A stretch of DNA of 64,000 nucleotides from Planctomycetaceae bacterium (GTDB lineage Bacteria > Planctomycetota > Planctomycetia > Pirellulales > Pirellulaceae), in the NCBI GenBank assembly GCA_002723275.1, contig PBNZ01000024.1, positions 149,853-213,852 on the forward strand. The letters are read 5' to 3'. The translations under genes and the position numbers were made by a program. This document shows positions 42,466-44,556 of this stretch, one piece after another; the first letter of the stretch is position 1, and every line of letters starts with the position of its first letter. The notes under the pieces were generated by a model. It was given only the letters and a program-made list of their open reading frames with translations. It was not told the origin of the DNA and made no database searches.

Positions 42466-43593
42466 TCAGGGTGTTGGTTTGTCGTCCGAGGTGAGTCCTT
42501 CCACCATGAAGGTGACAAGATCGGCCTTCTCTTGTTTCGTGAGATTGAGACGACCCCGCATTTCTTTTGATAGATGGGGATTGGGAATTCCACCCCGATC
42601 GTAAAACTCCATCACCTCTTCAAGCGTGGCAATGCTGCCATCATGCATGTAGGGGGCCGTGTCGACGACGTCGCGCATTGTGGGCACTTTGAAAAAGCCT
42701 TTGTTGGATTCGATCTTTGTGAACTCATACCGTCCAAGGTCAGGGTGTTCTTCCTCCATGCCAACTCCCAGATTGTGGTAGAAGATCGTCGTGAACGTGG
42801 GCGGTTCATGGCAGATAATGCACTTTGTTTTCCGACGATCCAGGAAAAGGTTAAGGCCGCGTTGAGCGGATGGTGACAGAGCGTTCTTGTCGCCTGCAAC
42901 AAATCGATCGTACGGGGAATTGCCAGCGACAATCGTACGCTGGTAGCTGGCGAGTGCCTTTGCAATGTTCGTTGTTGTCAGGCCGTCTTCAAAAGCGATT
43001 AAAAATAATTCGGGATACTCGCGGTGCTGTTGCAGACGCTCCAACAGGGCCTGGGCCGAAGGCATGCCCATTTCGTCCGGATTTAAGATCGGACCCAACG
43101 CCTGAGTTTCAAGGCTTCCCGCACGCCCGTCCCAAAATAAGGATTGATAATAGGCTGCGTTGAGAATGGAAGGCACATTTCGACGTCCCATCTTGCCGCT
43201 TACGCCCTTGGCAAAGGCCGCACCGTTAGTCCAGCCTTTGTCGGGAGCATGGCAGGTTGCGCATGACATGCTACGGTCGACTGAAAGGTCCGGGTCAAAA
43301 AAAAGCTTGCGGCCGAGATCAACCTTCTCGTGCGTCATCGGATTGTCCGGGCGCACGTAATAATCAGGAAGACCAACCGGTGCTTTACACTCGAACGATG
43401 TGGCGACATACGCAGCATTGATTTCCGGTGCTGGTGCGGCCGTCGCTGTTGTCTCTTCCGTAGTGCTAGTCGATAGAGAATCGCTTGGTCGACTCTCTTC
43501 CGCACAGGATATACACGGGAGCAGCAGCAAGATGAGATACAGGCCACGCAATTTGTGCATGCTGCACTGGCAACAAAGCTGCTTTACGGTCAT
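42466..43593 (-). CDS. Dihaem cytochrome c peroxidase (MauG-like), lipoprotein-type
   Basis: Start ATG 43593, 7 nt after AGGAA; 375 aa. The signal region LRGLYLILLLLPCISCAEE contains a lipobox-like ISC. Two haem-c motifs are CATCHAPDKGW and CIICHEPPTF, as in bacterial dihaem peroxidases, and the C-terminal APYMHDGSIATLEEVMEFYD segment carries the conserved His/Met axial region. It reduces H2O2 or modifies a partner protein in the periplasm. It starts 120 bp downstream of the end of the selenocysteine HMA gene, behind a strong terminator, so it has its own promoter. Confidence 0.92.
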   Translation of the reverse strand: MTVKQLCCQCSMHKLRGLYLILLLLPCISCAEESRPSDSLSTSTTEETTATAAPAPEINAAYVATSFECKAPVGLPDYYVRPDNPMTHEKVDLGRKLFFDPDLSVDRSMSCATCHAPDKGWTNGAAFAKGVSGKMGRRNVPSILNAAYYQSLFWDGRAGSLETQALGPILNPDEMGMPSAQALLERLQQHREYPELFLIAFEDGLTTTNIAKALASYQRTIVAGNSPYDRFVAGDKNALSPSAQRGLNLFLDRRKTKCIICHEPPTFTTIFYHNLGVGMEEEHPDLGRYEFTKIESNKGFFKVPTMRDVVDTAPYMHDGSIATLEEVMEFYDRGGIPNPHLSKEMRGRLNLTKQEKADLVTFMVEGLTSDDKPTP

Positions 43594-43646
43594 GACATGT
43601 TCCTGCTTCAACGAAATGAATCCCGCTAACACAGCTTAGTCATGAA

Positions 43647-43677
43647 AAAACGGTCGGACCAGCGGCCCGACCGTTTT
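43647..43677 (-). terminator. Intrinsic terminator of the HMA selenoprotein gene
   Basis: AAAACGGTCGG and CCGACCGTTTT pair perfectly (11 bp, 9-nt loop). On the minus strand six T follow the stem, so it ends the gene whose stop is at 43713 and separates it from the peroxidase gene. Confidence 0.85.
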
Positions 43678-43712
43678 CAATTATTTTCGGCACTGCGATT
43701 TTTATCGCTTTA

Positions 43713-44072
43713 TCACTTCACGGTTGCCCCATACCCCAGGCCTTCAATGGCCGCGATTATCTGGGCGTTATCCAGGCCATCGCCAGAGCAGGTTACGGAA
43801 TTCTTCGTGACTTCGTCTACAGTTACACCCGGTAACTTTGCCAAAGCGGCTTTAATCTTGCCACCTCAGCCACCCGGTCATCGCATCCCCGTGACGTTAA
43901 AGCTAACTGTTGAAGCAGTTAGTTGTGTATCCGTCGCGGGGTCGGTTGCCGCTCCGTCACCTGCGGCCGCGCTGGTGGTGTTGCTATCACCGCCTGGGCT
44001 AGGTGCGGGGCTTGACTGCGAACAGCCAATAGCGAGCAGCATGCAGAGCGCTGCCAAATGCTTTAGCTTCAT
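43713..44072 (-). CDS. Candidate double-selenocysteine HMA-domain lipoprotein
   Basis: ATG 44072 follows AAAGGGGA. Translation gives 64 residues to TGA at 43880-43878, but the same frame runs on through this and a second TGA (43868-43866) to TGA-TAA at 43715-43710, giving 119 aa. A lipoprotein signal (LLAIGCS) and an Ala/Ser/Asp linker precede an HMA domain: TVSFNVTGMR-U65-PGG-U69-GGKIKAALAKLPGVTV, then NSVTCSGDGLDNAQIIAAIEGLGYGATVK. The beta-alpha-beta-beta-alpha-beta pattern is complete, and both UGAs sit exactly where HMA proteins carry metal-binding cysteines (here with a CxxxC-type spacing). A stop at the first UGA would remove most of the domain. Likely a periplasmic metal or metalloid binder; target metal unknown. 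A normal cysteine-free pseudogene is very unlikely, since two independent TGAs fall on the two cysteine positions. Confidence 0.88.
43821..43880 (-). promoter_or_regulatory. Two in-frame TGAs with SECIS-like hairpins
   Basis: Read on the minus strand. After the second TGA, 43837-43832 (AGTTAC) pairs with 43826-43821 (GTAACT), six perfect pairs, loop CGGGT with G second; 34 nt separate this TGA from the loop, near the upper limit of bacterial SECIS spacing. After the first TGA, 43865-43860 (GGTGGC) pairs with 43850-43845 (GCCGCT), loop AAGATTAAA, 18 nt from the TGA; its G is third in the loop, a weaker fit. Folded by hand only. Confidence 0.5.
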
Positions 44073-44556
44073 CGGTCCCCTTTCGAAAAATATTGATGCA
44101 CTGCCGCCAACCGCTGGCGGACCCATCAACAAAGTCTAACACTCATACGCCGAGCCGTAAATCACGGTTTTTGACTCCCCAAACACTCCTGTCTGAGACC
44201 TTGAAGGATTGGTGGATTTACGTGAGCAAAGCAGTTCAAGCAGATGGAGAAATAAGAGTCAGAGCGCGTTTTATACGGAAAAACCAGGAAAGAGTGCCAC
44301 AATCCACTTGCGGTAAGTGCCAGCAAATGGTGCAGACTCCTTCATAGCATCGGTGCGCCGTGCCAAGGTTTGTAAGGATTTTAATACTTTTCGAACCACC
44401 TACTTGCCCGTCCCGTGCGGTTTTTCGGGAGGCAATGTTACCGCATTGGGTTTCTGAAATTTGCGTTTCTCTGATAAAATGGCTTTGCTTCCCCACGCTT
44501 CCTACCTCACTTGTGCTGGGTGAAACCATCGCAAGAAAATTCGTGGCGCGATCACC
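44073..44556. other. Divergent intergenic region
   Basis: About 480 bp between the HMA selenoprotein gene and the DUF1592-type gene. It presumably contains both promoters; no gene, repeat or operator was recognised. Open frames on both strands lack domains. Confidence 0.4.

Follow-up and report, generated by a model that had tools for sequence, protein, structure and literature searches.

A planctomycete HMA-domain lipoprotein with predicted selenocysteine at both metal-ligand positions

A gene for a short lipoprotein with a heavy metal-associated (HMA) domain was identified in a 64,000-nucleotide stretch of a Planctomycetaceae genome (contig PBNZ01000024.1 of assembly GCA_002723275.1; hereafter the window). 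It carries in-frame UGA codons at both ligand positions of the domain, in the spacing U-x3-U, and computation predicts with near certainty that both are decoded as selenocysteine (Sec), which makes the product a genuine double selenoprotein. We also put forward, tentatively, a two-SECIS cassette in which tandem hairpins, one for each UGA, would serve codons lying 9 nt apart and yield a lipid-anchored HMA domain whose U-x3-U metal site is a bis-selenolate.

The original prediction, which gave no strand, was of a 119-codon frame with TGA on both HMA ligands, and this frame was found on the minus strand (Table 1). The translation reads MKLKHLAALCMLLAIGC...FNVTGMR-U-PGG-U-GGKIKAALAKLPGV...GATVK and stops at a third TGA, codon 120, directly followed by TAA; the same-genus homologue terminates at almost the same point. 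In the lipobox, G16 is invariant in alignment A1 and G16-C17 in alignment A3. The Pfam HMA model PF00403 matches residues 58-114 with 32.3 bits, above its gathering cut-off of 24.8, but the C-x2-C ligand spacing of that family is not kept, as three residues separate the ligands. The AlphaFold model shows the order beta-alpha-beta-beta-alpha-beta with block pLDDT of about 84-96 over the HMA domain, and the nearest solved structures are the HMA domains of PacS, plant HMA7, ZntA, ATP7B and MerP.

Table 1. Positions of the gene, its decoding elements and its flanking signals in the window
Feature	Position	Strand	Remarks
CDS, double-Sec HMA lipoprotein (predicted)	43713..44072	-	119 codons + TGA stop, then TAA
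Lipoprotein signal peptide, lipobox LAIG-C17	44022..44072	-	from sequence
HMA domain, residues 58-114	43731..43901	-	PF00403 and AlphaFold model
UGA1 / Sec65, first ligand position	43878..43880	-	Cys or Sec invariant in alignment
UGA2 / Sec69, second ligand position	43866..43868	-	Cys or Sec invariant in alignment
Hairpin 1	43843..43867	-	loop 18 nt past UGA1; window loop AAGATTAAA without SECIS guanosine
Hairpin 2 (candidate SECIS), AGTTAC-CGGGU-GTAACT	43821..43837	-	covariation; loop 34 nt after UGA2
Shine-Dalgarno-like AAAGGGGA	44076..44083	-	identical in same-genus L095
Strong hairpin, U-rich 3' arm	43646..43678	-	-24.5 kcal/mol, z -3.8

No sigma-70-like promoter was found upstream of the gene, and an Rfam scan of the whole window at the gathering threshold returned no match. 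The strong hairpin behind the gene is likely an intrinsic terminator, is absent from the list of the consensus terminator scan, and separates the gene from the one downstream; the HMA lipoprotein gene appears to be monocistronic. Its neighbours are a di-haem cytochrome c peroxidase gene and a PSD/DUF1552 pair. The former (CCP_MauG, itself a lipoprotein gene, window 42466-43632, minus strand) lies just downstream and stays beside the HMA gene within the genus (66% identity).

The presence of selA, selB, selC and selD in the same genome is a criterion for bacterial selenoproteins, and the search for them, proposed with the original prediction, recovered all four in the window's own genome (6.8 Mb, 96.6% complete). 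SelB and SelA score 386 and 578 bits and their genes are adjacent on contig C29, SelD scores 356 bits, and tRNA-Sec scores 71.3 bits, with ARAGORN in agreement and the anticodon TCA. The host selD (L151; G000:C44:1006-1932) holds one in-frame TGA, and the host SelD is probably also a selenoprotein. As a second criterion, an in-frame UGA should align with Cys of homologues and be kept in other genomes, and this was observed as well. Residues 65 and 69, for which Cys or Sec in homologues had been anticipated, are occupied by one or the other in both columns; the exchange is restricted to these two ligand columns, which are the sole invariant Cys positions of the family.

The two stops in one short gene would also be explained if TGA were reassigned, the gene were a pseudogene or the sequence contained errors, so that no selenoprotein were made. 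This explanation is highly improbable, not only because the host has tRNA-Sec and Cys homologues exist for both UGA positions but because the same TGAs are kept in many independent genomes, which excludes TGC or TGT misread as TGA. Genome G001, from the same genus, carries the same pair (L014/L095, 68% identity), and so do many relatives, in line with the earlier argument that the two TGAs had not met the ligand positions by chance. The differences from L095 after UGA2 fall 4/6/25 at codon positions 1/2/3 (25 of the 35 at the third), and among the codons that differ 21 are synonymous and 8 non-synonymous. Since these differences are mostly third-position and synonymous, comparison of the two sequences indicates that the frame past both UGAs is translated and under purifying selection.

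The UGA forms also correlate with SelB. Among 396 genomes of the order, with SelB counted when over the cut-off, it was found in 30 of the 31 genomes with the UGA form versus 74 of the 365 others (Fisher p 2.8e-18, a value that overstates independence as the genomes are related, although seven taxonomic families contribute). The lone genome with the UGA form that lacks SelB, G130, is 65% complete. In a smaller sample of relatives, SelB was over the cut-off in none of the five genomes with the C-x3-C form; G146 is SelB-positive, yet carries C-x3-C. Taken together with the conserved frame, these results leave decoding of both codons as Sec by far the most credible reading.

Related genomes, searched with proteins and profiles, gave many homologues, with the ligand pairs U-x3-U, U-x3-C, U-x2-C or C-x3-C; one candidate, L092, proved to be an ordinary Cys HMA protein and was dropped from the family. 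The GTDB collection (about 85,000 genomes) was searched with the DNA pattern ATG-n3-TGA-n9-TGA-n31-TRCCGGGTGTA. It matched 36 loci, all of them (36/36) in-frame members of the HMA lipoprotein family with stems of 6-8 bp, which again speaks against chance. Planctomycetota (Pirellulaceae, Mariniblastus, Fuerstiella and unplaced genomes) account for these loci together with two genomes of Kofleriaceae (Myxococcota), both of which have SelB. Several U-x3-U paralogues occur in each of the two Kofleriaceae genomes (L115, L119, L132, L134, L139). In the family tree, which is built on a short alignment and has many unresolved forks, the Kofleriaceae genes form one clade nested in planctomycete sequences (support of the wider group 97/89), and this nesting suggests transfer between phyla. 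The U-x3-C state requires at least three changes on the same tree, from which it follows that Sec/Cys exchange at the second ligand position is recurrent. A sister lipoprotein subfamily (L081-L090, L107) has U-x2-C in the setting VPNMHUGGCAASVRGDL and a single UGA; there, a hairpin near UGA1 is present and hairpin 2 is absent.

According to the published rule, a bacterial SECIS has a loop of 3-9 nt, 16-37 nt from the UGA, with G within the first two positions of that loop (PMC13188914). The loop of hairpin 2 starts 34 nt past UGA2 and 46 nt past UGA1, and by the distance limits it suits UGA2 and not UGA1; with its loop CGGGU and covarying stem it conforms to the rule for UGA2. RNAalifold, unprompted, returned one hairpin from an ungapped alignment of 18 genes, with the loop CGGGU and changes on both sides at 3 pairs. 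With both hairpins counted together, 42 cells were changed on both sides versus 16.5 in shuffled alignments (0/500 as high), and pairing, both-side changes and covariation score were above all 500 shuffles and all slid versions.

Each of the 37 non-redundant U-x3-U genes under study has a hairpin with a CGGGU loop 34 nt past UGA2, with the three outer pairs formed in 37/37 and 11 different stems; as 24 of the 37 come from the pattern, which fixes loop and inner stem, the independent evidence in those genes is that of the outer pairs only. The 13 genes obtained by protein searches are free of this bias, and hairpin 2 is found in 13/13. It was absent from the f3-group U-x3-C genes and from all U-x2-C and all C-x3-C genes examined. 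Six U-x3-C genes from 5 genomes (L093, L097, L079, L101, L076, L080) retain it without UGA2, and hence the link between hairpin 2 and UGA2 is strong but not strict. Taken singly, neither hairpin of the window gene stands out against synonymous recoding.

Hairpin 1 is widespread in the family, though variable. In most of the 37 U-x3-U genes, a hairpin with at least 6 pairs about 18-26 nt past UGA1 fits the SECIS rule, and the stability of this region exceeds that of synonymous recodings in 68% of them, where a 3' control region gives 0%; for the window gene alone p is about 0.15, and its A-rich loop has no G. Hairpin 1 does not keep to one register: with the register fixed, only 62.5% of cells pair, because it shifts between genes, and that model was discarded. 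On these grounds, both UGAs would be read as Sec by the host's own SelA, SelB, SelC and SelD, with hairpin 2 acting as the SECIS for UGA2 and hairpin 1, upstream of it, probably serving UGA1. A ribosome on UGA2 is expected to cover hairpin 1, which makes a second downstream element plausible. This assignment of one hairpin to each UGA is inferred.

The product is expected to be secreted and lipid-anchored, with the selenolates of U65 and U69 in the metal-binding loop of a ferredoxin-like HMA domain. At the cell surface, the U-x3-U site would most likely hold a soft metal, e.g. Cu(I), Hg(II) or Ag(I), with the lipoprotein acting as scavenger or chaperone. By analogy with known HMA proteins, whose fold and ligand setting it shares, we consider this putative soft-metal role probable, the identity of the ligand and the physiology being deduced. 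The neighbouring genes lend it no support: no gene neighbourhood is conserved beyond close relatives, and no metal-resistance gene was found as a conserved neighbour.

The usual role of Sec is redox, and the main rival holds that U-x3-U, in the same double selenoprotein, is a redox centre for periplasmic diselenide or dithiol exchange. One U-x3-U HMA lipoprotein (L098, in G014) is fused to a DsbD_N-like domain, which scores 21.2 bits, below the cut-off of 25, and a thioredoxin-like lipoprotein is encoded 312 nt upstream of Kofleriaceae L119. The extra residue also alters the loop in comparison with the solved C-x2-C HMA domains to which it was aligned. Nevertheless, the fusion is a single case, no conserved thioredoxin-type partner was found among the neighbours, and both fold and GM-x-C setting are typical of metal carriers; a redox centre is considered less likely than a metal site. 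Handling of selenium or tellurium, in which the selenolates would bind selenite-derived species or other metalloids, would agree with the occurrence of the UGA form almost exclusively alongside the Sec trait; selenium as a ligand had been suggested in the original prediction. The Cys form, however, is common in genomes without SelB, which implies a function independent of selenium and renders this third role quite improbable. Soft-metal binding remains the favoured function.

Sec mostly occurs as a single, catalytic residue. In the present family it takes both ligand places of a well-known metal-binding motif, and since all-Cys, mixed and all-Sec forms exist side by side, a direct comparison could show how selenolate changes the affinity for metals. 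With their two hairpins, the adjacent UGAs are a natural system for testing how bacteria decode closely spaced Sec codons. U-x3-U proteins are cut short by annotation that takes UGA as a stop and are therefore probably mis-annotated. In a literature collection short of most subscription journals, no paper turned up on a UxxxU selenoprotein or on a heavy metal-associated selenoprotein of planctomycetes; likewise, no description of the two-SECIS layout with the U-x3-U site geometry was found for any HMA protein.

Among the NCBIfam models, of which none reached its cut-off, the nearest were UxxU_metal_bind, MerP and CopZ. NF041115 (UxxU_metal_bind, metal-binding (seleno)protein) likewise describes an HMA-type domain in which both ligands are Sec, but with two residues between them where the window family has three. 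The window protein scores 27 bits against its cut-off of 95 and the best relative tested, L132 of Kofleriaceae, for which it is the nearest family model, 73.6 bits; no member tested, nor any match in 5 genomes, passed. PMC13188914 lists this family as UxxU with 2 Sec, 'putative mercuric reductase'. The MerP-like selenoprotein of marine metagenomes, mentioned in the original prediction, is real, and is listed in PMC2398784 from the GOS survey. MerP (TIGR02052) resembles the window gene in its periplasmic HMA domain and reported Sec form, whereas the window gene encodes a lipoprotein with x3 spacing, has no mer genes beside it and scores 22.7 bits versus 92.55, so that neither the score nor the operon context of MerP is found. 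NF045683, the MerT/CopZ fusion-like heavy metal transport selenoprotein, shares the CopZ/HMA-like part and Sec but is fused to a MerT-like transporter, unlike the window family, whose members score at most about 42 bits versus 375. The HMA domains of CopZ, PacS and ZntA (PF00403) have the fold and the GM-x-C ligand setting in common with the window protein; they differ in being C-x2-C, cytosolic and free of Sec, and the loop of the aligned copper-ATPase domains is one residue shorter. Sec in HMA-type domains is thus already known from NF041115 (UxxU), NF045683 and the GOS MerP, while the present family adds a spacing of three residues, its form as a lipoprotein, its range of phyla and its paired hairpins.
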